Shown: positions 28,883 to 52,752 of the stretch, one piece after another
How the letters are laid out: every line of letters starts with the position of its first letter
Position numbering within the stretch: the stretch's first letter is position 1
IMG/VR virus record: IMGVR_UViG_3300037114_000023
Location: 1 to 54,605 of that record
Source of the DNA: a virus
Reading direction: 5' to 3' (one strand)
Length of the DNA: 54,605 nucleotides
Position numbers and translations under genes: made by a program
Notes under the pieces: generated by a model
Database searches by the model: none
Seen by the model: only the letters and a program-made list of their open reading frames with translations
Told to the model about the DNA's origin: nothing

Positions 28883-28894
28883 TTGGCGAATCAG

Positions 28895-30083: not shown

Positions 30084-30152
30084 AAATTGGGAGGCGTGTC
30101 AGTAAAACTACGAAGTTTACAATGCTGCGCCGAGTGATATTGTTAGAAGGTA

Positions 30153-30509
30153 ATGCAAGAATTGAATGAACTCGCGCGCGCTCTTGTTGAGCGGTGGGAG
30201 CATCAGCATAACCAAATAATGTCCGCCCTTCAACGGGTGGAGCAACAACAGGAAAAAATAATGAGCGCAATCACAGACTTCGCAGCCGCCGCACAGGCGA
30301 GCTTCACCAAGGTAAGTGCCGATTTGGACAGTCTCTCGACTGACATCGCCGCCTTGAACGCACAAATCGCCGCCTTCAACAATTCATCCGGCACGTTGAG
30401 CGCAAGCGATCAGGCCGCACTGGACGGTATCCAGACAGCCGCAGCCGCCCTGGCGACCAAGGCCGACGGGATTGTTCCCGCACCGCTGCCTCCGGCTCCG
30501 ACAACGTAA
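30153..30509 (+). CDS. Helical coiled-coil protein
   Basis: 118 residues with a fair ribosome site (AGAAGG) before the ATG at 30153. The first ~35 residues form a coiled coil (HNQIMSALQRVEQQQEK), and the rest has Ala-rich heptads (LDSLSTDIAALNAQIAAF) and a Pro-rich end. A later start at 30261 is possible. Small proteins of this kind are common in tail regions. It is the last gene before a terminator. Confidence 0.55.
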   Translation: MQELNELARALVERWEHQHNQIMSALQRVEQQQEKIMSAITDFAAAAQASFTKVSADLDSLSTDIAALNAQIAAFNNSSGTLSASDQAALDGIQTAAAALATKADGIVPAPLPPAPTT

Positions 30510-30529
30510 CCGACGACACAAATAACTTG

Positions 30530-30560
30530 AACGCCCGTCAGAAATGGCGGGCGTTTTTGT
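30530..30560 (+). terminator. Hairpin terminator with GAAA tetraloop
   Basis: An 11-bp stem (30530-30540 with 30545-30555) with one G-U pair and a GAAA loop is followed by TTTTGTTT. It ends the oxygenase/methyltransferase unit. Confidence 0.85.
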
Positions 30561-30606
30561 TTGCAAGCGTGGGATTTTGAAACTAGCCTGAGAGCCATCA
30601 AATAAT

Positions 30607-31386
30607 ATGCGAGTCTTTATCTCCGCTCACTGCCGCAACCCCGACCTGTTCGACGCCACGAAATTCGTTTTCAAAACACTGCGCGTCGGATTCCCGAACT
30701 CAGAAATAATCGTTTATGACAACGCCCTGAGCCAGCTTCACCGTTCCGAGATACAGGAACTTTGCCGGAAAAACACCTGCAAGTTTCAGCATATCCCACA
30801 GGCGGTTTCCTACGGCGGTTTAATCTGGCAGATATTCAGCAGCATACTCGCCAGCGATCAGGATGAACCGTTCTGGCTGTGCGACACCGACATCGTGTTC
30901 TGGGATAGCATGGAGCAATTTGAATTCGAGACGGCGATGGCTGGCCGGCATATCCCCAAGTTTTTCGACACGTACACAAAGTGCATCACCATGCCGCGAC
31001 TGCATACCAGCCTGCTTTACATTGACCCCGCCAAAGTTCGCCGGGAAATGGACATGCTGCTCGAAAACTTCCCCCGCGAGACGCCGCACAATCCGATGGT
31101 AAATCCGGTTTTCCCATTTTTCATGCCTTCACCCGAGGGCAAGGACGAATATTTCTTCTATGATTTGTGCGCGCCGATGAGTTATATGTTGAGCCAGACG
31201 CGGTTTACCGAGAAACACCTTGATTGCTTTGACCACGCTAATTGCGGCACGTTTGCAGACCTCCTGGAACCGCATGGACACGAGGGAATGGTGGCGCGAC
31301 AGAAGGCGATGTTTGCGAATCCGGAGACGATGCGCGGATTATGGAAAGAGCAGGATAAATATTTCGCGTATCACGCCGTCAAATGA
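30607..31386 (+). CDS. GT-A type glycosyltransferase candidate
   Basis: 259 residues. 'RVFISAHCRNPDLFDATKFV' starts a Rossmann-like fold with a Lys/Arg-rich helix, then 'SEIIVYDNA' and the metal-binding DxD at 93-95 (FWLCDTDIVFWD). 'PRLHTSLLYIDPAKV' resembles the acceptor side of GT-A enzymes. It would transfer a sugar from a nucleotide sugar to a protein, glycan or DNA base. The stop overlaps the cupin start (ATGA), so the two are co-translated. Confidence 0.7.
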   Translation: MRVFISAHCRNPDLFDATKFVFKTLRVGFPNSEIIVYDNALSQLHRSEIQELCRKNTCKFQHIPQAVSYGGLIWQIFSSILASDQDEPFWLCDTDIVFWDSMEQFEFETAMAGRHIPKFFDTYTKCITMPRLHTSLLYIDPAKVRREMDMLLENFPRETPHNPMVNPVFPFFMPSPEGKDEYFFYDLCAPMSYMLSQTRFTEKHLDCFDHANCGTFADLLEPHGHEGMVARQKAMFANPETMRGLWKEQDKYFAYHAVK

Positions 31387-31904
31387 AAACTGATTCACAG
31401 CCGGTAATCGAACTTGGGCCATCCGTCGGGGATGTCCTGGAGGATTTTGTCGCGTGGTATCTCAAGACCTTTGGCGGTGTACCGCCGTCGCCCCATGACG
31501 GCGTGGGTTACGTCGGAAAGTTTTCCCTGCTGACTTTCTACCGGCAAAAGGAGTTTCAGGTTCAACTCACGATTTGCAAACCGAACTCCAGGATTCCCGA
31601 CCATGCCCACCCGAACGTGGACACGATGGTTTCGTACGTTTGCGGCGAACTCTATTTCAGGGTTGACGGGAAAGAGGTTTTCAAACCGGAGGATATTTTC
31701 CAGACGGAGGACGGGCGCACGTCCAAGAATTTCAAGTTTATGCGCGTCAAGCCGGGGCAGATGCACGGGGCGACCATTGGTGACAAGGGGGCAGCGTTTA
31801 TTACTTTTCAGCGGTGGCTATCCGGCACGCCGAAAAGCGTGGAGTTGGATTGGGATGGACCGCCACTCAGCAAGGAACATTCAGAAAGGGAACTATATAC
31901 ATGA
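31383..31904 (+). CDS. Cupin-fold protein
   Basis: 173 residues. Cupin motif 1 is 'RIPDHAHPNVDTMVSYVCG' (H74, H76 and downstream residues) followed by 'ELYFRVDG', and motif 2 has 'VKPGQMHGAT' (H128), so a metal site is likely. The protein could be an isomerase, dioxygenase or sugar-binding protein. It is coupled to the glycosyltransferase before and the DNA methyltransferase after (ATGA overlaps at both ends), suggesting a sugar-modifying partner. Confidence 0.65.
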   Translation: MKTDSQPVIELGPSVGDVLEDFVAWYLKTFGGVPPSPHDGVGYVGKFSLLTFYRQKEFQVQLTICKPNSRIPDHAHPNVDTMVSYVCGELYFRVDGKEVFKPEDIFQTEDGRTSKNFKFMRVKPGQMHGATIGDKGAAFITFQRWLSGTPKSVELDWDGPPLSKEHSERELYT

Positions 31905-32398
31905 CACCACTAATTGACCGTGTTTGGGAAATGCCGAACCGTTTTACGTTTAAAATGCGTTGCGTAGCGAGCCTTCTCAAAGAAGAAATGCAAGGCACAT
32001 GGATTGACCCATTCGCCGGTGAAACCAGCCCAGCACAACTGCGCAACGATGCAGATGAATCACGCCATGCGGAACATCACTTAGACGGTCTGGATTTTTT
32101 AAAATCTCTACCGGATAAGACTTATGATGGCATTCTATTTGACCCGCCCTATTCGGTGACACAAGCCTTGAGGAAATATAAACCACGACAAGGAGGCACG
32201 GCGGGGCGAAGTGAGTATTGGGCCAAGTGTATGGACGAGGCGGCACGTGTCATAAAAATTGGTGGCAAGGCAATTTGCTTTGGATGGAACTCAAACGGTC
32301 TCGGAAAAAAACGTGGATTTCGGTTGGCACGCATGTTGGTAATTGCGCATGGAGCCTGCCACAATGACACGATTGTAACAGTAGAGACAAGTATATAA
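31901..32398 (+). CDS. Orphan adenine-specific DNA methyltransferase
   Basis: 165 residues from the ATG that overlaps the cupin stop. Motif I is 'WIDPFAGETSPA', motif IV is 'DGILFDPPYS', and the end reads 'ICFGWNSNGLGKKRGF' and 'HNDTIVTVE'. This order matches a widespread family of small phage N6-adenine methyltransferases. It lacks a separate target-recognition domain and has no endonuclease partner here, so it is probably used to protect phage DNA or for regulation. The DPPY catalytic motif is intact. Confidence 0.75.
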   Translation: MTPLIDRVWEMPNRFTFKMRCVASLLKEEMQGTWIDPFAGETSPAQLRNDADESRHAEHHLDGLDFLKSLPDKTYDGILFDPPYSVTQALRKYKPRQGGTAGRSEYWAKCMDEAARVIKIGGKAICFGWNSNGLGKKRGFRLARMLVIAHGACHNDTIVTVETSI

Positions 32399-32420
32399 TT
32401 CCCTTCAGAAAGGCTAAAAG

Positions 32421-32687
32421 ATGAAATGCAAACATGAGCAATTTGAGGCCAAGGTGGATGTCAACAGACTTTCCGACAGTGGGAGGTTCTGCGCTGACAT
32501 CAAAATAAAGTGCCTCCAATGCGGGGAGTATTTCCGTTTTCTTGGGTTGCCGTGCGGGATTGACCTTGACGGTGCGGCGGTTTCCGCGGATGGAACGGAA
32601 ATGCGCGTGGCGATTGGAACCAATGAGACGGTGGCGAACATCATTGACGGAAAATGTCCAGTTGGATTCACTGTGCGCAGGGGATGA
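32421..32687 (+). CDS. Conserved phage zinc-binding protein
   Basis: 88 residues. A Cys/His pattern (MKCKHEQFEA and IKCLQCGEYF) is followed by 'RFLGLPCGIDLDGAAVSADGTE', a phrase seen in many tailed-phage proteins of this size that I recognise but cannot assign a role. It overlaps the acetyltransferase start (ATGA). Confidence 0.65.
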   Translation: MKCKHEQFEAKVDVNRLSDSGRFCADIKIKCLQCGEYFRFLGLPCGIDLDGAAVSADGTEMRVAIGTNETVANIIDGKCPVGFTVRRG

Positions 32688-33127
32688 TACGCGCACTACA
32701 ACCATACGAAGTCGGCCTTTGCGTCGAAGGCGGCAAACTCTTTTTTAAGGAGGGCGATCTTCCGGGAGGCTTCGACGCCAAACATTTCTGCGCCACTTGG
32801 GCGCAACTAATCACGGACAAACGGGCGGCGATTCTCGCGGGATTCACGGATGCCAATGTCATCACGGGTGCATTGGGCGCTGTGCTGGCTCCCGGATTGT
32901 TCAACGCCAAGACTTACGCCACCGAAGCATTTTGGTACGTGATACCTGGCTATCGCGGCCACGGCGTCGAACTTCTGCTGGCTTTTCAGGAGTGGGCCAA
33001 GAACGCCGGGGCGCACTACGTAGCCATGATTCACCTTCTCAATTTGCAGCCGGAACATCTGTCGAGACTGTATCGGAAAATGGGGTACAACCCCATTGAA
33101 ACAAACTACTTGAAGCCGCTTACGTAA
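32684..33127 (+). CDS. GNAT-family N-acetyltransferase
   Basis: 147 residues from the ATG overlapping the previous stop. The acetyl-CoA loop is 'FWYVIPGYRGHGVELL' (R/Q-x-x-G-x-G/A type), followed by a helix (FQEWAKNAGA) and the C-terminal 'LYRKMGYNPIETNY' typical of GNATs. It could acetylate a virion protein, a host protein or a small molecule. Similar genes lie before ejection-protein genes in other podoviruses. Confidence 0.75.
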   Translation: MIRALQPYEVGLCVEGGKLFFKEGDLPGGFDAKHFCATWAQLITDKRAAILAGFTDANVITGALGAVLAPGLFNAKTYATEAFWYVIPGYRGHGVELLLAFQEWAKNAGAHYVAMIHLLNLQPEHLSRLYRKMGYNPIETNYLKPLT

Positions 33128-33151: not shown

Positions 33152-34375
33152 GTGAACAATTTTCTTCTTAATCTCAGCCGTGTGTTGGCTTATAGCGTGG
33201 TTTACGAAACCCGCTTGGCGATGTTTGACGGTGCGGTGATGGAGGCGTTTGACCCACAAGGAAGTATTGTGAGCGGAACAATCGGCGCGATATTAGGCTC
33301 GAACGCCCAACGCCAGGCGGCCGATACGGCTGCTGACGCAGCCAAGGCATCGCAAGCCGCCACCAATGCGCAAAATCAGTCGCTTTTTAATCAGGCCCAT
33401 GGATCAACAGGAAGTGCTGTTTTCCCTCAGTATTTGACTGGCGAGGGCGGGGCGGGTCTTTTCGAGCCGGAGCTTGGGCAAGATTTGGTAAAATCCTACG
33501 CAGCGGCAAACGTCCCGCTTTCCACTTTCCAATCGGCCACGGACAAAACGGCTGGCGCACGCAATCAAGCCCTTGACTTCACCAACAGCATTTTCAACGG
33601 CGGCGTGACAAACAAAATGCTGACGAATGTGGCTCCGGTCCAGACGCAACGGCTGGCCACGGCGCGGTCATCCTCGCTGGATGCGTTGCACAAAACCTTG
33701 GACCAGATTGACGCGAGCCAGGCCAATCGGGGATACGTGGGCGACAGTTACGGAAACCGGCTTTTGAGTTTCCAAGCCGGAAAAGAGGCGGGGAATTCCA
33801 TCGGTGCCGCACAGTTGCAAAACAAGCAGGAGACGGCGGACATCCAGAATTATGGAGACGTGACGCTGCCTTTGCAGAACATCAACCTGCCGTATCAGAT
33901 GAACCAGCAACAGGCATCGGCGGCGTTTCTTCCGCAGGACGAATATCTGGCGAGTCTTGGGCAGCGGATGCAGCCTTTCAACATGCTCAAACTCGGATAC
34001 ACAGGTCCATTCCAGTATCAGCCGTTGCCGACGCGGGGGCCAGCGGCGTTCAATTCAGGCGCGACAGCACTATCGGCGTTCGGGGGTGGCGCGGGACAAC
34101 TGGGCGGCGCGGCGATGAATTATTTCGGAACCAACAATCTTTTGAGCAGCGGATACGGGGGTTCGACCATTGGCAATGGCGCCAGCTATGGCCAGCTACC
34201 GTCTGGTTTCAGTGATACCTTGACCGAGGACAATGCGAGCGATCCGTTCTATGCGTCCGGCGCGGCGGCTGCGGGCGCGGGTGTTGCGAATAACGGACTT
34301 GATTTTAGCGGGTCAACAGCATCGGGTGTGGACTCATTAACCGGCGGAAGTTCGCTGTTTGGGGGGAGCGTTTAA
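33152..34375 (+). CDS. Internal virion (ejection) protein candidate, T7 gp14-like position
   Basis: 407 residues from GTG 33152; ATG at 33239 (about 378 residues) is an alternative. A glycine-containing hydrophobic stretch near the N-terminus (GSIVSGTIGAILGSN) is followed by long Ala/Gln-rich helices (AADTAADAAKASQAATNAQN) and a Gly/Ala-rich C-terminus. These features match DNA-ejection proteins that insert into the membrane. It precedes two further large internal proteins, as in T7 (gp14, gp15, gp16). Confidence 0.55.
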   Translation: MNNFLLNLSRVLAYSVVYETRLAMFDGAVMEAFDPQGSIVSGTIGAILGSNAQRQAADTAADAAKASQAATNAQNQSLFNQAHGSTGSAVFPQYLTGEGGAGLFEPELGQDLVKSYAAANVPLSTFQSATDKTAGARNQALDFTNSIFNGGVTNKMLTNVAPVQTQRLATARSSSLDALHKTLDQIDASQANRGYVGDSYGNRLLSFQAGKEAGNSIGAAQLQNKQETADIQNYGDVTLPLQNINLPYQMNQQQASAAFLPQDEYLASLGQRMQPFNMLKLGYTGPFQYQPLPTRGPAAFNSGATALSAFGGGAGQLGGAAMNYFGTNNLLSSGYGGSTIGNGASYGQLPSGFSDTLTEDNASDPFYASGAAAAGAGVANNGLDFSGSTASGVDSLTGGSSLFGGSV

Positions 34376-34376
34376 T

Positions 34377-35924
34377 ATGGCAGAAGCAGTCGTATCACCA
34401 GCGGTAAGGCCACTTGACTTTGGTTATCAGATTCCGAATCTGACAGACCAGATGCGTTCGGCCAGCGCCCAGACCTCGCAGGCAGCGGCTCCGATTGCCG
34501 AGGCGGCGTCAAACTTATCCAGGGCAAGAATCGAATTCGCGTTGCAGAATTTGAACGCGCAAAAGGCTTTAGAACTGGCAGGGTGGCAGCATCAGTCACA
34601 GATGCAGCGCAATGAAATGATGTATAAGAGGTTTTTGGATCAGCAGAAACTCAAGGGCACTCAGATGCTTGAGCAGATCAAGGGAAAGAACGACGCGGAC
34701 ACAATTAAACAGCTAAACACCACGATTCAAAGATATGGCGGACAACCGATGGTGCGTCAGAGCGGTGAGAGCGACAGTGACTACGCGGCCCGGCTTGGAA
34801 CTGCGGCAGTAGGCGCGAAGGCGCACGCAGTCGCAGCGGACACCACGGCAGCACTTCATTGGAATGATGAACTCGAAAAACAGAAAGATGCGGCGACTAG
34901 GTTGCAGGCACTTCCGGCGGTCAAGGCAGAGTTGGGGGCGGCACTCGCAAATCCCGGAGTGAATTCACAGGCCGATAATTATGTCGCGCAAAACTTTAAC
35001 AAATGGTTGAGCCAAGTCAGGCCGGAGCAGGCAGACCTGATAATGACGGCGTTACAGAAACAGCCGAATAAAGACGGCGAGATGATGGTGCTTAAAAACG
35101 CCGGGATTCTTGCTCAGTATCAGGATTTCAGGAATGGTGCGTTGCAGGACGAGGCGTACCGATTCCTTAAAAATGCCGGTACTCCGCAGGGAAAAGCGTT
35201 GGCGACGATTAATGAAAACATAAAATTTGCCCAGGATAGGTACAACGGTGTGCTGATGACGGAGGCGAGCGGGAATACTGGGAGACAGGTTAGAAAATCC
35301 TACGCATCGGATATTGAGAACGGTGTTCAAGATACGCTGTTGCAACGGAAGAATGACGCAATAAAGGCAGCTCAGACCCCGCCACCACCCCCTGCGGGTA
35401 GCGGATCTGGGACTACCATCCCAACCCCAAATGGTGTCACCCCGCCGCCACCGTCCCTTTTCGGGCCGGGAGCGAGTGTGCCGGCCAGATTCTTGCAGGA
35501 TAATGTGGCAACTCCAACAGTCAGTGCCCCAGCAAACCCGAACCCTATGTCTCCGCAGTGGACAACGCTGCCAAACGGCGCGCGAGCTTTCATCCCAATG
35601 CCTGTGTCTCAAAGCGACCGCACAAACGGTGTGATATTGCCGGGTGGCAGTATAAACCCGTACTTACGGGCACCTGTCATTGGGCCACCAGAAAACGCCA
35701 TAGCAAACGGGGTAAACCCGCCCGGTGGAGTGACGAACTCACCCGCGACAATGATGCCGGCAAGCCCATTTCTCGTCCCGCCAGTTTTGCCCGGCCCTCG
35801 CGGCGTGTCTGTTTCTCCCGACAATTACGCGCCCGCTGCGCCGCAAGGTTCTCCGATGGACGCTGGTGGCGACTACGGAAGTTTCCTGCGAGATCAATAC
35901 TTTATGGGCATGGGTGTGCAGTAG
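34377..35924 (+). CDS. Internal virion protein candidate, T7 gp15-like position
   Basis: 515 residues from ATG 34377, preceded by a purine-rich GGGGGGAG. The first 330 residues are helical with coiled-coil features (AGWQHQSQMQRNEMMYKRFL), and the last ~180 are Pro/Asn/Gly-rich and disordered. It sits between the gp14-like and giant proteins and probably forms part of the ejectosome. There is no sequence signature beyond architecture. Confidence 0.5.
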   Translation: MAEAVVSPAVRPLDFGYQIPNLTDQMRSASAQTSQAAAPIAEAASNLSRARIEFALQNLNAQKALELAGWQHQSQMQRNEMMYKRFLDQQKLKGTQMLEQIKGKNDADTIKQLNTTIQRYGGQPMVRQSGESDSDYAARLGTAAVGAKAHAVAADTTAALHWNDELEKQKDAATRLQALPAVKAELGAALANPGVNSQADNYVAQNFNKWLSQVRPEQADLIMTALQKQPNKDGEMMVLKNAGILAQYQDFRNGALQDEAYRFLKNAGTPQGKALATINENIKFAQDRYNGVLMTEASGNTGRQVRKSYASDIENGVQDTLLQRKNDAIKAAQTPPPPPAGSGSGTTIPTPNGVTPPPPSLFGPGASVPARFLQDNVATPTVSAPANPNPMSPQWTTLPNGARAFIPMPVSQSDRTNGVILPGGSINPYLRAPVIGPPENAIANGVNPPGGVTNSPATMMPASPFLVPPVLPGPRGVSVSPDNYAPAAPQGSPMDAGGDYGSFLRDQYFMGMGVQ

Positions 35925-35939
35925 TTAAATGGTCAAGCC

Positions 35940-38900
35940 ATGCCTGACCAACTCACAATAGAACAGCTTTTACAAGGTACTCCAAAGATACCGGAGGAAG
36001 GCGGACTGGATTCGCCCGCGCCACAGTCGAAGGGTAATCAGCCAGCGAGCACGTTGACGCTGGAGGGTTTGCTCAAGGGGACACCAGGGGCGGATCAGGA
36101 CGCAGTTCCACAGACTACCGCAATGGGCACAGCCGCACGCGCCGCAGTCTCGAACATCGGACCGGGTGCGGCTGCGGCGGCGGCTTTTCCGATTGGCGCG
36201 GAAAAGGGCGCTGCGATAGGGGCGCTTGTGCCCGGTGCGGGGGAAACCGGATTGTCGGAAGCTGCTGGAGGGCTAATCGGTGGAACCATCGCGGCAGGCG
36301 CGGCGGCATGGGCGGCAGCAAAGGCCCAACACGCACTAGCCTCGACGCTGGCTCCCGAGACCACGGAGAAGTTCAACCAAGCGGAAGCCGCGGGCGAGGA
36401 AGCGCATCCCGTTGCGGGTGCGATCGGGCGGCTGGCCACCATGCTTCCAATGTTCGAGTTTGCTCCGCAGAACACGGTGGGCGGACTATCGGCGCTTTAC
36501 AAGGCGGCTCGTGGCGGGACGCTCACGGTGGCGGAGAAGCTGGCGGCCAAAACTACAGCGAGTCAGGTGGGATTGCAGACCGGTCTTGGGGTGGTTCAGC
36601 CATTGATGTTTGGAGAAAGCCCGACAAAGAAGGGGATTGCAGAGGCTTTTGTCCAGTCACTTTTGCTGGGGCATCCTCGATATGAGATTTTTGGCGCTCC
36701 GGCAGCGGAGGCCATTGGGAAGGAGGAGGCGGCGACGGACGCGCAGACCGAGAAAGCGCAGGGTGTCGTTCAAAATCCAGCCTCAATCTACAGTCCGCCG
36801 CCGCCGCCCGACTTGACGCCGGAACAGCGCGGGCAACTGTCGGAATTGGCGGCTCGCACGGCATCGGGCGCGCCGGAGGACGTGAACGACGCCCAGCATT
36901 TGAAACTAATGGGCGAGAATGAGAACGCCCGGAAGTATTACGAGCAGCAAAAGCAGGGTTGGGCGCAACTCATGGCCTACACGCTGGCCGGCAAGTCCAA
37001 GATTGAGACGGTGGGGGATGGTGGTCAGGAATCTCCGCAAGCGCAGCCTCAAAAGTGGTATTCCTCAAATGATTCCGTTGGTCCAAAGCAGACACCACAG
37101 GGCGATACAATTCACGGATTATCACTCAGCCAAGACCCGCTTTACGCCGGAGAGTATTCAAAGACTGGGCAGGTTCACGAATTCGACTTGTCTGGGGCAA
37201 AACTGAAACCTGTCAGTTTTGACTATGGGATGACCATTACCACCGACAAGTTGAATCAAATCAGGTCGGAGGGTTACGACGGGGTATCGTTCGATGGGAT
37301 GCATGGCCCGGAGGTCGCTCTGGTAAACGATGTGGCTAAAAAGACCGGAACCGTCAACGCCTTGCAGGAGAAATTCAACGAGGCGATTGCGGACGGCAGG
37401 CCAATAGGGCGAGTGGAGCAGAGGCTCTACGCAGTGAAGGGCTTGCAGTTGCCGGAGGTTTACCACCAGCAGGAGGATGGCTCATGGATACGCGCAACCG
37501 AACCTGGAAAGCCACCTGGCGGCGATGCTGCACGCCTCGAACAACTCCGCGCCATCCCAGAGTCCCAACGCACGCCGGAACAGGCCGCGGAATTCAACGC
37601 GCTTGTGGCTAAATCCGGTTCCGTTAAGGACCAGATGGCGGCTGAATTTGCGAAACTCAAGGCGGCACAACCAATAGTTGACCAACCGGTAAACAATCCG
37701 CCCGTGGCTCCCGGCGGCAGCACACCCGCGATGGCGGAGTGGACTAAACATCAGGGCGATCCCGCTGAATTAGTCCAGAGGATGCAAAACACGGCTGAAT
37801 CCGGCAAGGTGGCCGTGGCGACTGGCGAGGGCGGTGTTGGCAGGAAGTCCGCCACAATGTATCAGGATTTGACCGGCAAGCCCGCTGGCGAAGCCAAGGA
37901 GCTTGTGCGGCAGGACGTGGCTGGATCCAAGGAAGCCGGGGCGCAATCCCGCAAGCTGGTGGCCATGCTGTCCCCGGACAAGTCCCATGTTCTCGTCGGG
38001 ACGGCCAGCGAAACCAGGAGCGGCGAGACGCGGACTTTGAAGGTCTCGACCTACGATGTGGGTGCTGGCCGTAAATCGCCCGGCGGTGAGCATTTCGCCA
38101 GCAATTACGATAAAATGGTGGCGGATGGCTGGCAGCCGTTGGCGAGTCTGAAAACCGACAAACCGGCCAAGGGATTCTTCGCTACGTATTCGCCAGAGCA
38201 GTGGAAAACCATTGAGACGGAACTGCGGGCGAGCCATCAGGCGGCGCAACGCACGGCGGAGGCGATGGAGCAACACCTTGCGGCTGGCAAAGACTTTGGG
38301 CGCGACGTTACCGTTAACGCTGACGAAACCGGAGAACACCCCCCGGAGGAAGCGCCGACACCTGAAGCGGCGGTTGAACACCCGCCGGAACGGGTTGTAA
38401 CGGCTGAACATGCGGAGGCTATCGCAGAGGCAATCAAGGGCTTAAAACCCGAGGACATTGCCGACCAGAACTCGATGGCGTTAGCGATAAAGAAGGCCGG
38501 ACCGGATGCGGTCGAGGCTTTCAAGGTCATGGTTCGCCATGCCTTCGATGCCGGTTTTCCAGAAGATAAAGCGGTAAGTATCGTGCATGAAATACTTTAT
38601 GAACATTCAAGAAGCGGCGAAACGAGTGGGCCAGAAGTGGAAAAGTCCTTCCTACAGAAAGTCGGCCAGGGCGGCGATGAAAACGCTGGGAATAACACCG
38701 GGAAGCCTCCAGGTCCAGACACAGGACCAGGTAGCGAAGCAGCCGGAAATAAACCAGGCGCAAGCGGAACTGAAACGGGAGCAAACCCAGATGCAGAAGG
38801 TGGCGGCAAAGGAGGGAGCAAACCCAATCCCGCAGGTACTCCCCTCGGCACTCCCGCCAGCATAGCCGGAAAGACAGGTAAGATTTTTCTGCCGGCCAAG

Positions 38901-41900
38901 CTGGAAAGGCCGCATGACATCGTGGACGAGATTCAGGGTCAGGTGGGTAAGATACGGTCGCAGAATGCAGCCAAGCCCGGCACGGAGGATCATTACGCCA
39001 CAGACGCTTATAAGCAGGTTCGCAAGGCGTTTCCCAATATGTTCTCCGATACCGGCAGCACGGCGGACCAAGTGGTATCCGCGCTCATGCGAACCGGCCA
39101 CTTTCAGGAAGGGGCCACCGTGGATGATTTGTGGGATGCGATGCTGCGCGCGCGCGGCGAGCGGACGGCTCATGCCCGCGGCCAGTTGCCGGAACAGAAG
39201 GCGGACAAGTTTCAGCAGGCGGTATCGGATAATCTTGCCAAAAAGGGTAGCCACAAGCTGTCGGTCGGCGAACTGTCGGTCGGCGACACGTTCAGGATTA
39301 AAGGCGCGAGCTTCGAGGTAAACCATATTGATCCGGACACCGGAGAGGTCCAGGTAAAGGATGGCAAGAAATTCGGCTATCAAGTCATCCCGGATGGTGC
39401 GGACATAGCCGTGGATGCTGGTTCGCTAAAGCAAAATCCTCCGGAATCCGGCGGTGACGACCCGTTCTCGGACGAAAATGTCCGCAATCGCACGCGCCAG
39501 GCCAAGGAGGAAGTTGAGAATCTTCGCCCGGGGGACGCCCATACCGCGAGAACGCTGGACGTGGTTGAGCGCAACCTTACCGCACTCGGCATCAAGGTCA
39601 GGCGGATTATTGACCCGTTGGTTGACCATTTCAGCACAGGTTCGTACAAGGAACTCACCAATGGCCGGGGCAACGCGGAGAGGATTGTCACCTACTCGGT
39701 AGCTGACGCCCACAAGCCATCGGCTGACAGCCTCGTCAGTCTCTACCACGAGGTTTTGCACGCGATATTCGCCAGGGAAAGCCCGGAAATGCAGGCGGCG
39801 GCGCAACGGGCGGTGCGGGACGTGTCGAACGAGGAATTGGGAATCGGCAAGTTCAAGGAGCAAGTCCCTCAAAATTTACCGGAAAACGTGAGGGAAGGCG
39901 TCCAGCAGGAAGGGCGCATAGCGGAATCTCTGGCCCGAAAGCTGGTCAACGACGGATTTGACCCAGTGACCGCCAACAGCTTCATGCAACGCGCCGTGCG
40001 GCTGATACGGGACGTTTACAACGGCGCACTCATGGCACTGGCCAAGGTGGCGGGGTATCCCATCAGCCAGGAACGGGCACTGGCGTACTTCGAGAACCGG
40101 ATGAAGATGGTGGTTTCCGGCGATATGATGTCTTGGATTAACTTCCTCGGTGGACCAAGGATGAAGATGCCAGACTGGGACAGCCCGAACATCGGCGGCG
40201 TGGAGCGTTACCGCAGCATCAACTCAGTCAGTAACCCGCGCAAGTATCTGGACACCAAAGAGGGCGCACCGACGGGAATTGCCGCACTCAACCACTTTTT
40301 GACTTCGATGAAGGCCATCGCCCATGAGTGGGGCGTCTCCGCTGGCAATCTCGCCGGCATGACGGACGAGCAGGTCATGGCACGATATATCAACCTGCCG
40401 GAAAAGCTGGGCGACCAGGATTTGTTCACGAACGGCGACACGCCGCAAAGCCTGATCGCCGACGCGGTAAAGCAACACGGCGTTAGTCCAGACACTAAAA
40501 TTAGTGATTTGCCTAACGACGTGGCCAAACAACGGGCCTTGGTTGTGACACACGGAATGCTGTCCGCGGTGAAGGCGGAAATGGAGGGTGTCGCAGGCGA
40601 GGCTCGCACGCAATGGAACAAGGACGCTAACGCATTGGAGCGCAATACCAGCCAACTTGACCGCCTGGCCAGTCATTACGTGGACATTGATTACATGGCC
40701 AGGACGGCCAGGGACTCGATGCTGCAACTCGTCAAGGACGTTACCGGCGCCGTCCGGGGCATCCGGGATGTCTCGGCGAGAAAAGGCGAGGTCGAACAGA
40801 CCTTGGCGCAACTGGACCCTGCCAGCCAACTCAACGGCCAGTTGACGGCGCCGTACCGGAAGGCACTTGATGTAATACAAAAACGGCTGTCCGGCGAAGT
40901 GACCACGAATTTCGCGGATGCTCTGCAAACCATTGGCAGCATGGACATTGACTGGAAACGACCGAGCCATGACATTGCCAATGACTTGCTCGCCAAACAC
41001 AGTGAGAACCCGGAATTGAACCATGCGCTTCGGGAATTCCTTGGGGACAATCCGGAGTCGAAGGCGTTGCTGTCCACGTTGATTGCCTACGGTAAGGCCA
41101 ACAGTCATATGATGGACATGCTCGCGCTCCGGGCCGACCGCGCCAGCGAGAATAAGATTGAGGCTAACCAGATTTTGCGGGACATGGTGGGCGCGAGCAA
41201 GGGAATGCTCGCGGAACTCAAGCAGCGCATCAATTCCACGTTCGGGAAAAACATGCGGATGCGCGACCGGATGCTCCGGATTTCCGATAAGATGGATGAT
41301 TTGAGCGACCGCAACCATGACCTGTTGGACTCCATTGCCCGCAATAAATCGCTGGTGGACTTTCATGAGGACATTTTTAAACCGGCGGTGAACGGGGAAC
41401 TTGCGGCCGTAGAGAAGGAAACCGGCATCACGCTCAAGAATTTCGAGGTTGTGCATGACGCCGAAGTCTCCGTCCCTGCCAAGCCCGATGCGACCCCGGA
41501 CCAGTTCGCAACGAGAACGCTTAAAATTCGCACAGCCTTGGGCAAGCGCGGCGATTTGCCGACGCCATCGGCGGAGGTCATCGGCTGGCAGCGATCAATT
41601 CAAAAGTGGCTGGACAATCCGGAGAACCTGAAGTACGGGGCCAAATACAACGAGATGGCGGACGTGGCGCTGAAACTGAAAAACCACGCCATCAGCAATG
41701 AACACCTGAATATCAAAACGAATTTCCTGGAACGGATGCTCGCGCCGATACAGGACCGATGCCGACAGGCCGGGACAGAGGCGGCGCGATTGGCTGGGCA
41801 GGGGTTTAATAAATTCTCGTCGCTCGTCCGTGGCAAGCGGGAAATGGCCGTCCAGACCGGCACCAATTTTTCCGCGCAACTCAGCCGGGCAAAGAAGGCG

Positions 41901-44900
41901 TTGGGCTATCCCAACGTCGAAAACGGCGTCTTTTGGAAAACCATTATCTCGCCGCAGCTTCACGCCTTGCAGGATCGGGCGGACATCTGGGGGACTGCCA
42001 AGACGGAAAAGGAAATGATTGACCGGGCAGTCAACGCTGTCGCGGATGCCTTGAAGCTGAAAGACCCAGCCGCCAGGGATGCGGTTTCCAAGCTCATTCG
42101 GATTCACGCGGACAACTCGACCGAACTCCGCAACCACGGCGCGGAACTGGGGAACAAAGTCAAGGACATCGGCGGCGCACCTAAGAGCAGCATCTTCCGT
42201 CTGGCGCTGGGCGTTGCTCCCCTTGTGCTGCCCAGGGCGACCACGGCTCAGGCGATTGATTTTTACCACGAACACATGGGGCGGTCATGGGGTGGTGATA
42301 AATTGGATCTTCCGGCAATACGGGACATGTACGACAAAGACCCGGATCAGTTGCGGGCATCGCTGCAAAACCGGTTTACCAAGCCGGTGTGGGATTGGTT
42401 CGTGAAGTCACTGGCCGAAAATGACAAGCCGCACTTCTCGGCACCGCCGGAGAATGGTCTTTCCCCGCTGGCCGACCGCGAGAACATCATTAAGGCATAC
42501 CAAGGGGCGCACGGCGATCCTGTGGCGTTTGCCGAACTGATTGCCGCGCTGCACGACCACAAGGCCGATGGCGCTTTCGTGGCCGACACCTTGGATACCA
42601 TGCAGAATTTCAGCAACTTGCTGCGAACCATGGCCGGTGACGAGGCGGAGTCCGTGACGCGGGGAAGTCCAAACCCGCCGCGCTTCATCGTGGACGCCCG
42701 GCATTGGGAAGCCGCGCCGAAAGAGTGGTGGGATTACCTGATGACCGACCAGAACACCATGCTCCGGGTGATTAACGGGCAGGCGCACCAAGCGGCCTTT
42801 GGTCGAAATGGCGAGGCTCAGGACAATCTGCTGTCCACCGCCATGAACGAGCAGCGGGAATTCTACACGAAATATCAGGCATGGCGACAGGAAGCGCAGA
42901 ATGTCAATCCCGGCATCAAAGAACGGGAGTTGCAGGCCATGTTGAAGGCGCGCGCGGAGAAGGAGGGTATTTCCTTCGACGCGCTTAAAAACGCCAAGCG
43001 AAACTTGAACGGTTTGACCAACGCCGCTCAGCATTACGACGCCATTCAGTCCATGAACAATTCCGGCAAGATACCGGAACTCCTGCCGTGGCTCCGGGTG
43101 TTGCATACGATTGCCGGCGGGACGGTGGCCGGTGCCGGTACAGCGATCACGGCGCACAGCGTCTTTCTGGAGCAGCCGGCGAGACACCTTGGGTTCGGCC
43201 CGCGCTCGCTGGCGATGACCGGGCGTGCCATCACCGATTTGGCCGGCACGATGGCGAATTCATTGTTGCAGGCGTTCGGTCATTCCGTGGTTTACGAGGC
43301 GCGGCGCACGCTGGACGCCAATGATGGCGGCATCTATGACCCGATTAACACCAATAAAGACCGCTACACGGTGGCCTATGAACACGCGCACGCGGCTTAC
43401 CGCGACTCCAGCAGGCTCGGGCAGACGGTCGGCACCGCAGCGGATGTCGGGGCGGCGGCGATGCAACATGACGTGTGGGGGCCGGGAGCGCGGGAGAAGG
43501 CATTGGCGCGGCAGGCGGCGGGGCAGCCGGTGGCGCCCAGCCTCAAGGCGTTGTCGCCCTTCCATTGGATTGCCAAATGCCTGGAGATTTCCAACTTCAT
43601 CACCTGGGAGCGGCATATTGAGGGTATGGTCGCGGCCGGGGCGAATCATTTTGAGTCAAACCCGGAACACTACGCGGACAATGATTTCAGGTTCACGCCC
43701 AAAACCCTCAACGGCTTCAATCCCGGCGACCGCGAGTTTAATTTTCTGAGTGACCGTCTGGCGCAGTACGGGGCGAGCATCGAGCAGCTTTCGCGGGAAG
43801 CCTATGACAATCGCGGGACCAGCAAGCCGATGTTGTCCCATGAAATGCGGAAGAACATCCAGCAGGTCGTGCTGAACGAGATAACGCTGGAATCGTCACT
43901 GACGAGCCGGATGCCGTCACTCCAAACCAAGGGACTCGGCACGGCGATGAATCCGTTTCTGGGGTGGCCGCTGCAAAAGACCTATCAGGTTATGCGGGGG
44001 TTCCGGCAACCGGACGGCGTGGCTTCGGCTTTCCGAAACGGGCTGACGCCATACCTGGCGATCCTGCCGCTGGGCATGGCGGCGGCATGGCTCCGCAACA
44101 AGTTCGACGAGGACGTGCTGGGGAGGAAGCAGAATGTTTCAGACATCAGCCAGATACATGACGTGAAATCCGGCCTAATGACCGCCCTGGACAATGCGAG
44201 CCGCGTGGGAACCTTCGGACTGCTGGGCGAGGGAGCGAATTACTTTTTGAGCAACGACAACGTGCGACCGCTCTCGGTGGACAACCGGATTTTCTTCCTG
44301 AACACCTTGGAAAACGCTTTCAATGCCGCGCGCGGTTTGTATCAGCAGACCGGCCCGCAAATTATGGCTGGAAACTTCGAGGGTGCGGAAAAAACCGCGA
44401 CGGATTATCAGACGGTCTGGAGGCCGATAATTCAATCGCTGGGCGGCAATGGATTGCTGCAAAACCTGGGTGCGGTGAATCATCTCCTGGCGATTGACGA
44501 CGCGGAAGCCCGCGTGAGCAACCGCATCTCGGTGAACAATTACCTGCGGGTGGCTGGCCGCGAACTGAATCTCGATGTCCGCACGTTTGGCGGGATGATG
44601 TCCGATCAGAGCGTGCCGGGTCCGATCAAGCCGTTTGTGGGAAAGATGGTGTTGGCGGCTTACGCGAACAACAGCGAGGACTTCAATTCCTCGATGCGCG
44701 ATGCGGTGCGGCAGGCGAAAACCGAGGGCATGACCTCCGACCAGGCGATGAAAAAAGTGGTGGGCATGTACGAGGCGCAAAGCCCGATCCGGATCGTGTT
44801 CAAATCTCCGCCGACGGAAATGGAATACCGGAAGCTCATCGCTCAACTGCCAGACAACGGGAAGCAATCCGTGCAACAATCCATCGCGCTATTCAACCAT

Positions 44901-45035
44901 TTTGGCCAGCAGATTGGCGCGAACCCAGTGACGTTCGGGAAGGACAAGGCGGATAAGCCTATCATTTTCGACTCCGGGGCTTCTTCGGTTTTGAATCGGC
45001 TGCGGGGGCAAAGGGCTACGGTTGGGGCGTTTTAG
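35940..45035 (+). CDS. Giant polyvalent virion protein (3031 aa) with metallopeptidase and ART-like segments
   Basis: 3031 residues in one open frame, the last rightward gene. The N-terminus has a 12-residue motif twice (LTIEQLLQGTP at 5-15 and LTLEGLLKGTP at 39-49), then an Ala/Gly-rich hydrophobic region (about 60-135) suited to membrane insertion. Residues about 370-470 resemble a small ADP-ribosyltransferase fold (LSLSQDPLYAGEYSK, SEGYDGVSFDG, EVALVND). Residues 1270-1274 are HEVLH, a zinc metallopeptidase motif, with acidic helices downstream. A Gly/Pro/Asn-rich linker lies at about 885-980. The rest is mainly helical with hydrophobic patches near 2390 and 2710. Size and place match gp16-like ejected proteins and 'large polyvalent proteins' of phages. 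Its end overlaps the opposing gene by 20 bp. Confidence 0.65.
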   Translation: MPDQLTIEQLLQGTPKIPEEGGLDSPAPQSKGNQPASTLTLEGLLKGTPGADQDAVPQTTAMGTAARAAVSNIGPGAAAAAAFPIGAEKGAAIGALVPGAGETGLSEAAGGLIGGTIAAGAAAWAAAKAQHALASTLAPETTEKFNQAEAAGEEAHPVAGAIGRLATMLPMFEFAPQNTVGGLSALYKAARGGTLTVAEKLAAKTTASQVGLQTGLGVVQPLMFGESPTKKGIAEAFVQSLLLGHPRYEIFGAPAAEAIGKEEAATDAQTEKAQGVVQNPASIYSPPPPPDLTPEQRGQLSELAARTASGAPEDVNDAQHLKLMGENENARKYYEQQKQGWAQLMAYTLAGKSKIETVGDGGQESPQAQPQKWYSSNDSVGPKQTPQGDTIHGLSLSQDPLYAGEYSKTGQVHEFDLSGAKLKPVSFDYGMTITTDKLNQIRSEGYDGVSFDGMHGPEVALVNDVAKKTGTVNALQEKFNEAIADGRPIGRVEQRLYAVKGLQLPEVYHQQEDGSWIRATEPGKPPGGDAARLEQLRAIPESQRTPEQAAEFNALVAKSGSVKDQMAAEFAKLKAAQPIVDQPVNNPPVAPGGSTPAMAEWTKHQGDPAELVQRMQNTAESGKVAVATGEGGVGRKSATMYQDLTGKPAGEAKELVRQDVAGSKEAGAQSRKLVAMLSPDKSHVLVGTASETRSGETRTLKVSTYDVGAGRKSPGGEHFASNYDKMVADGWQPLASLKTDKPAKGFFATYSPEQWKTIETELRASHQAAQRTAEAMEQHLAAGKDFGRDVTVNADETGEHPPEEAPTPEAAVEHPPERVVTAEHAEAIAEAIKGLKPEDIADQNSMALAIKKAGPDAVEAFKVMVRHAFDAGFPEDKAVSIVHEILYEHSRSGETSGPEVEKSFLQKVGQGGDENAGNNTGKPPGPDTGPGSEAAGNKPGASGTETGANPDAEGGGKGGSKPNPAGTPLGTPASIAGKTGKIFLPAKLERPHDIVDEIQGQVGKIRSQNAAKPGTEDHYATDAYKQVRKAFPNMFSDTGSTADQVVSALMRTGHFQEGATVDDLWDAMLRARGERTAHARGQLPEQKADKFQQAVSDNLAKKGSHKLSVGELSVGDTFRIKGASFEVNHIDPDTGEVQVKDGKKFGYQVIPDGADIAVDAGSLKQNPPESGGDDPFSDENVRNRTRQAKEEVENLRPGDAHTARTLDVVERNLTALGIKVRRIIDPLVDHFSTGSYKELTNGRGNAERIVTYSVADAHKPSADSLVSLYHEVLHAIFARESPEMQAAAQRAVRDVSNEELGIGKFKEQVPQNLPENVREGVQQEGRIAESLARKLVNDGFDPVTANSFMQRAVRLIRDVYNGALMALAKVAGYPISQERALAYFENRMKMVVSGDMMSWINFLGGPRMKMPDWDSPNIGGVERYRSINSVSNPRKYLDTKEGAPTGIAALNHFLTSMKAIAHEWGVSAGNLAGMTDEQVMARYINLPEKLGDQDLFTNGDTPQSLIADAVKQHGVSPDTKISDLPNDVAKQRALVVTHGMLSAVKAEMEGVAGEARTQWNKDANALERNTSQLDRLASHYVDIDYMARTARDSMLQLVKDVTGAVRGIRDVSARKGEVEQTLAQLDPASQLNGQLTAPYRKALDVIQKRLSGEVTTNFADALQTIGSMDIDWKRPSHDIANDLLAKHSENPELNHALREFLGDNPESKALLSTLIAYGKANSHMMDMLALRADRASENKIEANQILRDMVGASKGMLAELKQRINSTFGKNMRMRDRMLRISDKMDDLSDRNHDLLDSIARNKSLVDFHEDIFKPAVNGELAAVEKETGITLKNFEVVHDAEVSVPAKPDATPDQFATRTLKIRTALGKRGDLPTPSAEVIGWQRSIQKWLDNPENLKYGAKYNEMADVALKLKNHAISNEHLNIKTNFLERMLAPIQDRCRQAGTEAARLAGQGFNKFSSLVRGKREMAVQTGTNFSAQLSRAKKALGYPNVENGVFWKTIISPQLHALQDRADIWGTAKTEKEMIDRAVNAVADALKLKDPAARDAVSKLIRIHADNSTELRNHGAELGNKVKDIGGAPKSSIFRLALGVAPLVLPRATTAQAIDFYHEHMGRSWGGDKLDLPAIRDMYDKDPDQLRASLQNRFTKPVWDWFVKSLAENDKPHFSAPPENGLSPLADRENIIKAYQGAHGDPVAFAELIAALHDHKADGAFVADTLDTMQNFSNLLRTMAGDEAESVTRGSPNPPRFIVDARHWEAAPKEWWDYLMTDQNTMLRVINGQAHQAAFGRNGEAQDNLLSTAMNEQREFYTKYQAWRQEAQNVNPGIKERELQAMLKARAEKEGISFDALKNAKRNLNGLTNAAQHYDAIQSMNNSGKIPELLPWLRVLHTIAGGTVAGAGTAITAHSVFLEQPARHLGFGPRSLAMTGRAITDLAGTMANSLLQAFGHSVVYEARRTLDANDGGIYDPINTNKDRYTVAYEHAHAAYRDSSRLGQTVGTAADVGAAAMQHDVWGPGAREKALARQAAGQPVAPSLKALSPFHWIAKCLEISNFITWERHIEGMVAAGANHFESNPEHYADNDFRFTPKTLNGFNPGDREFNFLSDRLAQYGASIEQLSREAYDNRGTSKPMLSHEMRKNIQQVVLNEITLESSLTSRMPSLQTKGLGTAMNPFLGWPLQKTYQVMRGFRQPDGVASAFRNGLTPYLAILPLGMAAAWLRNKFDEDVLGRKQNVSDISQIHDVKSGLMTALDNASRVGTFGLLGEGANYFLSNDNVRPLSVDNRIFFLNTLENAFNAARGLYQQTGPQIMAGNFEGAEKTATDYQTVWRPIIQSLGGNGLLQNLGAVNHLLAIDDAEARVSNRISVNNYLRVAGRELNLDVRTFGGMMSDQSVPGPIKPFVGKMVLAAYANNSEDFNSSMRDAVRQAKTEGMTSDQAMKKVVGMYEAQSPIRIVFKSPPTEMEYRKLIAQLPDNGKQSVQQSIALFNHFGQQIGANPVTFGKDKADKPIIFDSGASSVLNRLRGQRATVGAF

Positions 45036-45764: not shown

Positions 45765-46048
45765 GCCTTCCCCTCCGTCTCTTTCTTCGGCAGCACTTTG
45801 TCGAGCGCGGCGAGGGCTTCATCCCATTTTTTAGCAGAGGTGGTTCGTGACAGCAGTTGATTGCGAACCGGTTGCCATGCTTTAAATGCCTCTCTCGCCA
45901 ACTCCATCGCCTCTTGCGGCGCGGTAAAGTGGCGGGTGATAATGAGGGCTAGAACGTTCCTTGTAAAAGGACTGCTACCGCCAATTTCTTTCTGTATCTC
46001 CTCCGCCGCGTTAACAGCGAATGGAAGGGGTTGGGTGGGTTCGCTCAT
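45761..46048 (-). CDS. Small helical protein, unknown
   Basis: 95 residues from the ATG at 46048, which overlaps the previous stop (ATGA); a longer start at 46069 would overlap more. Helical with 'NVLALIITRHFTAPQEAMEL' and a basic/acidic C-terminus (KVLPKKETEGK). Its stop overlaps the next GTG. Unknown. Confidence 0.6.
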   Translation of the reverse strand: MSEPTQPLPFAVNAAEEIQKEIGGSSPFTRNVLALIITRHFTAPQEAMELAREAFKAWQPVRNQLLSRTTSAKKWDEALAALDKVLPKKETEGKA

Positions 46049-46488
46049 AAATTCAGGTTCTTCACCCATTTCATTTTTTGTTCCTGCGGCTGGTCAGTCC
46101 GTCTGTCGGGCCGCGTCTGCCAACTGCCATTTTTGGTCATGCCTTCACACTTCCAGCCCGAAGCCTTTAAACTAGTTCCGAGTTCAGTTTGAAGTATGAA
46201 TGTCTGGATTGATTTGAAAGCCAACTCCTTTGCCGCACGAGCTGCTTGAGCATAGAGGAATGAGCAGGCATTGGGCGTTCCGTCAGTTGTCAGGCGGGTA
46301 ACTTCCGCAATGTTTTTCTGGTCTGTTTGGCGAGCGACCGGCCTGCCAACGATAACACACCCCACAAGCCTACCGTTTACCGCCGCGCCAATACTGAATC
46401 TGTGGCCGACAACGGGCTTGTGATGGCGATGTAATTTTGCCACGAACTCATTTGCCTCAGTCAATTCGATTCTCACAGCTTTCAGCAT
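46045..46488 (-). CDS. XF1762-like conserved phage protein
   Basis: 147 residues from ATG 46488 (upstream in-frame starts overlap the preceding gene). The core reads 'ANEFVAKLHRHHKPVVGHRF', 'LVGCVIVGRPVARQTD' and 'AEVTRLTTDGTPNACSFLY', the hallmark of the XF1762 phage family, which has a GNAT-like look ('GRPVAR', 'EVTRL'). The family has no proven function that I know of. The C-terminal ~30 residues are polar and probably disordered. Confidence 0.75.
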   Translation of the reverse strand: MLKAVRIELTEANEFVAKLHRHHKPVVGHRFSIGAAVNGRLVGCVIVGRPVARQTDQKNIAEVTRLTTDGTPNACSFLYAQAARAAKELAFKSIQTFILQTELGTSLKASGWKCEGMTKNGSWQTRPDRRTDQPQEQKMKWVKNLNL

Positions 46489-46492
46489 AAAT

Positions 46493-46885
46493 TCATTCCG
46501 CTGGTTGTTTGGTTGGGGTTGGTGGGTTGAGGGCTTTCTGTGCATACTTATTTATCAATTCGTGAACAGAACTATTACGAATATACGACCGGCCAAGCGA
46601 TTCAATCTTTTGTAACTCCACCCTCATAGTCGCACAATCAGCTTCGAGTTGTCGGATTGTGTTTCGTAGCAGGGTTTGTGCGTCGTCCACTTCTTCGATT
46701 AGTTGCTGCTGGCCCCATATATTTGACCATTCAGGGCTGAGGCCAGTGACAAGGAAATAAACTTGATTCAACGCTTCTTCGTGCTGGTCGCGTTGGTCAA
46801 TTGTGTTCGAGTGGGCAGATTCCTCTCTCTGCAAGGCTTCTTCAAGCCGCTGGCACTTTTCGGTTAGTTGTTCAATCTCGGTCAT
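46493..46885 (-). CDS. Coiled-coil protein
   Basis: 130 residues from ATG 46885, which overlaps the preceding stop. A clear coiled coil at the N-terminus (IEQLTEKCQRLEEALQREES), a short globular middle (VYFLVTGLSPEWSNIWG), and another coiled coil before a Pro-rich end. It is a probable oligomeric accessory protein. Unknown. Confidence 0.6.
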   Translation of the reverse strand: MTEIEQLTEKCQRLEEALQREESAHSNTIDQRDQHEEALNQVYFLVTGLSPEWSNIWGQQQLIEEVDDAQTLLRNTIRQLEADCATMRVELQKIESLGRSYIRNSSVHELINKYAQKALNPPTPTKQPAE

Positions 46886-48636: not shown

Positions 48637-48710
48637 AATCTCAAATAAACGACCAGCGCGACGAGTGGCGTCAAGGCCACAGCGACCAGGATTAGGAAGG
48701 CGGTTAGCAT
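48633..48710 (-). CDS. 25-residue membrane peptide
   Basis: The ATG at 48710 overlaps the end of the integrase gene (CCATGCTAA) and the stop overlaps the next ATG (ATGA). The peptide is one hydrophobic helix (TAFLILVAVALTPLVALVV). Same length and style as the peptide at 386-463. Confidence 0.55.
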   Translation of the reverse strand: MLTAFLILVAVALTPLVALVVYLRL

Positions 48711-49819
48711 GGTTTTAAATACCCACGGGTCGTCTGGCTGCTGGCGTGACCGAGCAGATCGCGGATTTGATTCTCGGTGAGAACCTGGGCCAGCCGTTTG
48801 GCAAGTCCCTCTTTGCTCACCGAATCGAATTCCGACTGGGCCTTGAATCTTCTCGTGCTGTGGAAGCCCTTATCGGCCACGCCAAGCCTTTGGCACAGCC
48901 GCGAGAATTGCAGCGATAGGCTGGCTCGCTTGCGAGGATCGCGGGCAATGGCGTTCTGTTCTGGGAACAAATAAACCTTGCTCGCCGGGACTTCGGAAAT
49001 TAGCCGCGATGTTTCGGCGGTGATAACATGGGCGATGCGTTCGGATGTCTTTTGCATCCAGAGAGTCACCTTGCCGGACTCGGCCAGCGATGCGCGTTCC
49101 AGTTGCGCGATGTCGGACAATCGCAATCCCGTCTCCCTGGCGACACGCACGGCCACCAGCCAGAAAATGATTTGAGTTTCATCCTCGAAAAGCTCTTGCG
49201 AACCTTCCCAATCATCAGTGAGTCCTTTGACCAAGGCGTCCATTTCAGAATCGGTAAACGGCTCGCGTTTCACCTTCTCTTTCTGTTCATGCGAAAGAAT
49301 TGAGAAATCAACCTCGACCAGCTTGGAGACATCGGCGATCAGCCAGCCGTTGCACGCGCAGTAGTCGAAGAAAGCCCGGATGATTCCCAGCGTGGTCCTT
49401 CGGGTGGACAGTTTCCACGTTGACTCGGGGTTGTTCACGACCGCGCCGATATGCTCGGAGGTGACTGCCGACGGCGGTTTGCTGCGGATGCCAGCTTCAT
49501 CCAGCCAGTTATGCAGAACAAACCAGCTACCGGACACTGTGTTGGCGGCGCGATGCCGGCGGATATGCGCCATGTATTTTTCCAATGCCTTGTCACAGGT
49601 AAGATTCTGGCCGGTGAGGATTTGGCCGATTACCCGCGTGGTGAGGCTCCCGGACTTCGCGGCGATGGTGAGCTTTTCGACGCCAGCCTCGCGGACCACC
49701 TTGGCGGCCTCCTCGCGGCTGGAGCAGCCCGTGCTGATGCGCTTGGTCTTGCCTCCGGCGGTCATCACTTTTACGTGATAGATTCCGGAAAGTTTTTTGA
49801 GTGAAGGTTGGGTGGTCAT
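48704..49819 (-). CDS. int: Tyrosine-type integrase
   Basis: 371 residues. The catalytic set is complete: R233 (TGLRLSDIAQL), K257, H320-x-x-R323 (FHSTRRF), H358 (LLGHASSQTT) and the nucleophile Y367 four residues before the end. An N-terminal arm-binding region (10-50) and a SAM-like core-binding region (about 72-180) precede it. It would integrate and excise the prophage, indicating a temperate phage. It overlaps the preceding gene by four bases. I could not identify an attachment site. Confidence 0.9.
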   Translation of the reverse strand: MTTQPSLKKLSGIYHVKVMTAGGKTKRISTGCSSREEAAKVVREAGVEKLTIAAKSGSLTTRVIGQILTGQNLTCDKALEKYMAHIRRHRAANTVSGSWFVLHNWLDEAGIRSKPPSAVTSEHIGAVVNNPESTWKLSTRRTTLGIIRAFFDYCACNGWLIADVSKLVEVDFSILSHEQKEKVKREPFTDSEMDALVKGLTDDWEGSQELFEDETQIIFWLVAVRVARETGLRLSDIAQLERASLAESGKVTLWMQKTSERIAHVITAETSRLISEVPASKVYLFPEQNAIARDPRKRASLSLQFSRLCQRLGVADKGFHSTRRFKAQSEFDSVSKEGLAKRLAQVLTENQIRDLLGHASSQTTRGYLKPC

Positions 49820-50490: not shown

Positions 50491-50956
50491 AGGGAGTTTG
50501 TGGCGGCTCTGGCGGCGCGCTGGCTTTCGCTTTGGCATCCTTCGCTTTTTTGTTTTCATAGATTCGTTTCCATTCTTCTGACGCGGTCCTGACGAATTGC
50601 CGCTGGTAGTGGCGCCGCAGCCCGGCCCTCCGGCTGTTCACCGCAACGCGCCACTTTCGCAGCTTCAAATCCACCGCCGTCAAGCGCTTGATAAAATCGT
50701 CTATCCGCTTTCTCCGTTCCTTGTGCAATTCCGCCACTGCGGCCGCAATCTGCCGTGCCAAGGCTTTCGAGTCGTCCTTCCGAAAAGCGTTCACCAGGAG
50801 TTTCCGCTGATGATAAAGCTCGCCCAGCTTGACGCCTGCCGCCTTGATTTGCCTGTCCTCTTTTATCCATGCGATGACCTGTTTTTTGAAAGCCGGTGTG
50901 AACTTGAATGTCGTAAGGCCGACATCGAGATAGGAATGGTCATGGTGTCCTCTCAT
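50477..50956 (-). CDS. Basic helical protein, unknown
   Basis: 159 residues, strongly basic with coiled-coil features (HKERRKRIDDFIKRLTAVDL) and a Lys/Ala/Pro end. The start overlaps the stop of the ATPase gene (ATGA). It may be a DNA-binding partner of the HerA-like ATPase. Confidence 0.55.
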   Translation of the reverse strand: MRGHHDHSYLDVGLTTFKFTPAFKKQVIAWIKEDRQIKAAGVKLGELYHQRKLLVNAFRKDDSKALARQIAAAVAELHKERRKRIDDFIKRLTAVDLKLRKWRVAVNSRRAGLRRHYQRQFVRTASEEWKRIYENKKAKDAKAKASAPPEPPQTPYDRD

Positions 50957-52746: not shown

Positions 52747-52752
52747 TGGCAA

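Follow-up and report, generated by a model that had tools for sequence, protein, structure and literature searches.

A giant, probably polyvalent-type protein with a likely zincin-like domain and variable segments, encoded at the end of the virion-protein block of a probably temperate phage

Results

The window, that is the whole stretch of DNA analysed here, is a complete IMG/VR record, 54,605 bases long and listed as linear. Its giant gene (35940–45035, + strand) is one unbroken frame with an ATG start, encodes a protein of 3031 amino acids and begins 15 bases after the stop codon of the preceding gene. A reading made from the sequence alone (hereafter, the sequence-only reading) had described this stretch as a single 3031-residue frame, and it is indeed a real, intact gene: homologues in this length class occur in three other contigs and are 52–55% identical over residues 1174–3005. 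The giant protein itself found no match in Pfam, PHROGs, NCBIfam and PDB, in whole-protein as well as in domain scans, nor in 50,697 phage records, and a tblastn search of it against phages gave no credible match.

The relatives were detected in viral contigs at 75–77% identity with a query of 230 residues near the C-terminus. Only this C-terminal query found relatives, and alignment queries re-found the same three contigs. No relative was returned when the viral contigs were searched with TerL, residues 373–465, the HExxH segment alone or the complete protein, nor when prokaryote contigs were searched. Two of the relatives' giant proteins are stop-to-stop frames of 2766 and 2831 amino acids, while the third reaches 3162 amino acids and is ended by the contig edge. 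The four giant proteins can be aligned over nearly their entire length, with conserved parts at residues 50–330, 600–760 and 1199–3005, and variable linkers at residues 350–600 and 800–1190.

The gene order is also conserved. Specifically, the window contains TerL (7791), a portal-size gene (11282), a scaffold-like gene (14341), a capsid-size gene (15907), genes starting at 19080, 22241, 26109, 33152 and 34359, and finally the giant gene; in the three other contigs the giant gene likewise comes after the terminase, portal, capsid and tail-protein genes and the two conserved genes, in this order. The large terminase (7791–9386) is backed by Pfam and PHROG 2, and the product of 22241–24943 matches PHROG 3287, "virion structural protein" (2e-16 in one relative); the portal, scaffold and capsid names rest on size, order and composition. 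Identity to the relatives is 64–67% for the large terminase, 64–71% for the portal-size protein and 68–73% for the capsid-size protein. The two genes directly upstream of the giant gene, both on the + strand, are candidates for partner virion proteins: the first (33152–34375, 407 amino acids) shows 54–61% identity and the second (34359–35924, 521 amino acids) 25–34% identity in all three relatives. In the contig of relative L004, the gene preceding the giant gene (L054:9496-11913, − strand) encodes 806 amino acids, compared with 521–555, and has a long additional part. The giant gene is the last gene of the virion-protein block of the phage.

An acyl-carrier-protein-like gene (14059–14310, +; PP-binding, Pfam E 6e-10, with a DSLD motif) lies within the structural block, between the portal-size and scaffold-like genes, and has no match in the three relatives. 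A cargo-like cluster (28883–33127, +), located after the tail genes and before the giant gene and including a DUF6445 gene, a methyltransferase, a GNAT acetyltransferase and unassigned genes, is unmatched for nearly all its genes in the relatives, which do have the flanking genes. On the opposite strand, an integrase (48704–49819, PHROG 1) is kept in two relatives and suggests a temperate phage; the phage is probably podovirus-like and temperate. The same strand carries a gene (46045–46545) with a weak Mom-family match (Pfam E 2e-5, slightly below the curated cut-off), whose product may modify DNA and would then represent a counter-restriction trait. It also carries a HerA/FtsK-like ATPase gene (50953–52752; DUF87, E 1e-9), which in addition matches PHROG 2666, terminase large subunit, and coexists with the separate large terminase.

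At the N-terminus of the giant protein, two similar short motifs, LTIEQLLQGTP (residues 5–15) and LTLEGLLKGTP (residues 39–49), span positions 35952–36086 (+). By eye, such a pair is present in all four homologues, worded differently in each, and may act as a signal for docking or packaging. The motifs are followed by a conserved Gly/Ala-rich region (residues 60–330; 36117–36929, +). The sequence-only reading had assigned to the protein a membrane-active N-terminus and several hydrophobic helices. The highest mean Kyte–Doolittle value over 19 residues is 1.34 (residues 109–127), compared with the usual transmembrane-helix threshold of 1.6, so that none of the helices is of the transmembrane kind and a membrane-spanning N-terminus is rejected on hydropathy; the label "membrane-active" for this region is a guess.

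Beyond the N-terminal region, two further conserved parts lack a recognised function. The first (residues 600–760; 37737–38219, +) emerges from the family alignment, and the second is a C-terminal scaffold (residues 1423–3005; 40206–44954, +), which reaches 86% identity per 50 residues and belongs to no known family. The scaffold starts at a seam (residues 1414–1423; 40179–40208, +) directly behind the zincin-like domain described below. At this seam the alignment shows an insertion in relative L004, which carries there a Kinase-PolyVal domain (PF18762, E 3e-26), while the other three homologues have nothing at this place. No second enzyme other than this kinase was recognised in the family, and as a curated polyvalent-protein domain it supports the class assignment. 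Kinase-PolyVal is found mainly in phages of Verrucomicrobia–Chlamydia and Bacteroidetes (PMC5512222), which at most hints at the host. Shortly behind the seam, residues 1434–1496 (40239–40427, +) show a weak similarity (hhalign P 0.002, against 0.1 for the best reversed control) to part of the SNF2 helicase region in the giant protein of Microcystis phage Mwe-JY07. Judged from this resemblance, the segment is possibly a relic of a methylase–helicase module.

The domain in front of the seam (residues 1199–1400; 39534–40139, +) was defined through alignment, structural model and profile comparisons. The zinc-peptidase motif HEVLH that had been noticed in the sequence is present at residues 1270–1274 (39747–39761, +), and is the sole HExxH of the giant protein, with 0.11 expected from composition. 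All four family members conserve it as HEVLH, HEAGH, HEAFH and HEAGH, respectively. In the four homologues, EGRIAE, EGRLVE, EGRLAE and EGRLVE stand 54–55 residues past HExxH. Both histidines, the intervening glutamate, E1324 and E1329 (39909–39926, +) are invariant at 50–58% identity to the window sequence, while the x residues vary (VL, AG, AF, AG). A third zinc ligand, the lack of which the sequence-only reading would have held against the motif, has two candidates, the invariant E1324 and E1329, which both fall within a predicted downstream helix (121–143 of the model); either may serve.

An AlphaFold model built with the four sequences orders the elements as helix, strand, strand, strand, HExxH helix, helix, and a helix with E1324 and E1329. 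The published core of polyvalent zincins consists of a three-stranded sheet, an N-terminal helix, the HExxH helix and a helix with a zinc-binding glutamate (Iyer et al. 2017, PMC5512222). The two orders are equal. Structure prediction by domain, proposed earlier as a check, agrees in the order of elements, but the confidence is low (mean pLDDT 62), and Foldseek with this model retrieved no solved structure at E 0.001. The Pfam family MPTase-PolyVal (PF18818) did not match the giant protein at E up to 10.

A relation to other polyvalent HExxH domains came from a tblastn match of E 3, no evidence alone, which pointed to the giant protein of Mwe-JY07. There, the matching stretch holds HEAWH and sits between helicase and LPD3, and plasmid proteins from Azospirillum and Thalassospira contain relatives of this domain, with HEGWH and HEMWH. 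When the resulting three-sequence HExxH set was compared by hhalign with every segment of the window family, those with the whole HExxH stretch gave P 8e-5 to 1e-4, compared with 0.038 for the best unrelated segment. The signal is weaker in HMMER, where a single-profile comparison of the zincin segment with the Microcystis domain gave 9.4–10.5 bits, barely above the best of 1500 shuffles (8.6). All together, these data make it quite probable that residues 1199–1400 have a zincin fold.

The second enzyme proposed for the protein, an ADP-ribosyltransferase (ART)-like segment at about residues 370–470, fared differently. Residues 373–465 (37056–37334, +) belong to a variable linker, and the relatives either do not have the segment or have an unrelated linker in its place. 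ART-PolyVal (PF18760) gave no match to the giant protein at E up to 10, and tblastn of the segment against phages and plasmids produced no credible match, the plasmid rows being short chance matches. As a yardstick we used a profile from eleven phage ARTs; the way to it led through one true ART lineage (L022, L034) found, amid mainly chance matches, with an ART-motif DNA pattern. The segment scored 3.4 bits against 61–174 for the true ARTs, each left out in turn, and the best of 200 shuffles reached 3.1. At the positions aligned by eye with the catalytic His of YHG in strand 1 and Tyr of YFT in strand 2 stand Ser375 and Ser395; within the ART catalytic set only the acidic residue has a counterpart, E458. 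The model of the segment (pLDDT 43) is uninformative. The ART identity is therefore unsupported, and a tempting annotation is removed.

Discussion

Large size, gene position and the likely zincin are features of the polyvalent class, and a second enzyme is seen in relative L004 alone. The giant protein appears to be a new and very diverged member of this known class, in line with the earlier description of a giant polyvalent-type protein, which the position in the virion block and the conserved HExxH support. The place in the late block, the conserved partner genes and the size favour a protein that is carried in the virion and accompanies the DNA; the late-block gene order makes it probable that the protein is present in the particle and ejected. 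Taken as a whole, the best explanation, which we hold with moderate confidence, is a virion-ejected polyvalent-type protein with a constant scaffold, a protease-like domain and a variable payload.

On this explanation, the giant protein would be synthesised late, along with the structural proteins, incorporated into the virion and brought into the cell together with the DNA. It would be the third and the largest of the products of a three-gene set at the place of T7 gp14–gp15–gp16. The constant scaffold, made up of the N-terminal region and about 1600 residues at the C-terminus, would serve packaging and delivery. The constant mid-protein zincin, with its HExxH and Glu, would cleave its own giant protein at assembly or after entry and free parts of it, and the variable stretches (about residues 366–600 and the seam behind the zincin) would hold exchangeable payloads, a kinase in one relative and nothing recognisable elsewhere.

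For polyvalent proteins, entry with the DNA has been proposed, and own processing has been raised for their MPTase domains (PMC5512222); DdrB of P1, which is processed before packaging and carries an MPTase-type domain, is the model given there. A self-processing role of the zincin has in our estimate slightly less than an even chance. It is favoured over an attack on the host by the constancy of the zincin across a family whose payload varies, and processing of the phage's own protein appears at least as likely as host attack. The sequence-only reading had envisaged two effector enzymes directed against host factors, and one candidate enzyme is now left. That this enzyme cuts host proteins on entry is rather unlikely: zincin domains are effectors in other conflict systems, and the option is left open for polyvalent proteins (PMC5512222), but effectors are expected to vary with the host, whereas this domain lies in the constant core of all four homologues, unlike the variable payload, even if four sequences are few.

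A somewhat more doubtful reading regards the protein as a giant structural ejection protein whose HExxH domain is catalytically dead and purely structural. It would agree with a protein that is for the most part conserved scaffold without known enzymes and that matches no active peptidase in the databases; the invariance of both histidines, the Glu between them and the two downstream Glu, while neighbouring positions vary, argues against a dead site.

It is improbable that residues 373–465 are a true, extremely diverged ART, in which case the giant protein would have two enzymes. Among the segments of the giant protein, this one ranks best in hhalign against the eleven ARTs, with 23 columns aligned around GYDG (P 0.033), GYDGV...PEVALV replaces GYDGI...EYVVF, and GLSLSQDPLYAGEYS resembles by eye the G-x-YFTSxxxxAxxY part. 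The resemblance to true ARTs spans only 20 residues (GYDGV...PEVALV), and the shuffle-level profile score, the two serines, the missing Pfam match, the low-confidence model and the relatives without the segment all speak against it. Finally, the conserved C-terminal part could conceal an N4-type virion RNA polymerase. This would account for the zincin as well, N4-like virion RNA polymerases being always fused to MPTase domains (PMC5512222), but it is very improbable, as neither the single sequence (Pfam, PHROG, PDB) nor a four-sequence profile of residues 2021–3031 (PDB) gave a polymerase match.

In conclusion, returning to the virion-ejected protein with constant scaffold and zincin, these data place a lineage whose giant protein is unmatched among phage records in the polyvalent-protein scheme. 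They also separate the constant parts (scaffold, zincin) from the exchanged ones (kinase or unrecognised payload), and raise the question whether the zincin processes the phage's own injected protein. A more speculative extension, to which we give a rather small chance, regards the giant protein as a vehicle for delivery whose docking seams are fixed: an unvarying ejection scaffold would be combined with a constant protease that releases whichever payload domain sits in front of or behind it. The payloads, a kinase in one phage and an unrecognised domain in the phage of the window, would be exchanged within the lineage, and segment 373–465 would represent a new type of payload.

Comparison with known systems sets these features in context. 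In T7, the structural operon closes with three co-oriented genes, the largest last, which encode the internal virion proteins gp14, gp15 and gp16; gp16 has a transglycosylase. The three-gene set of the window lies at the same place, is co-oriented and also ends with its largest gene; unlike in T7, no transglycosylase is recognised in the window protein, and no sequence similarity between the two sets was detected.

The Mwe-JY07 giant protein (WWT39866.1, "putative DNA methylase") combines the curated polyvalent domains LPD39, InPase and LPD3 with SNF2 helicase and methylase domains, none of which is present in the window protein. The two proteins resemble each other in the HEAWH domain, which aligns to residues 1199–1381 (26% identity, E 0.002 pairwise), and in the second, weak match at residues 1434–1496.

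With respect to polyvalent proteins in general (Iyer et al. 2017, PMC5512222), the window protein differs in that it matches no curated polyvalent domain, Kinase-PolyVal being missing from it, and in that only one candidate enzyme is recognisable. It is like them in being a giant multi-segment protein, in its place in the late virion block of a terminase–portal phage and in its zincin-like HExxH domain, and its relative L004 shares with them the Kinase-PolyVal domain.
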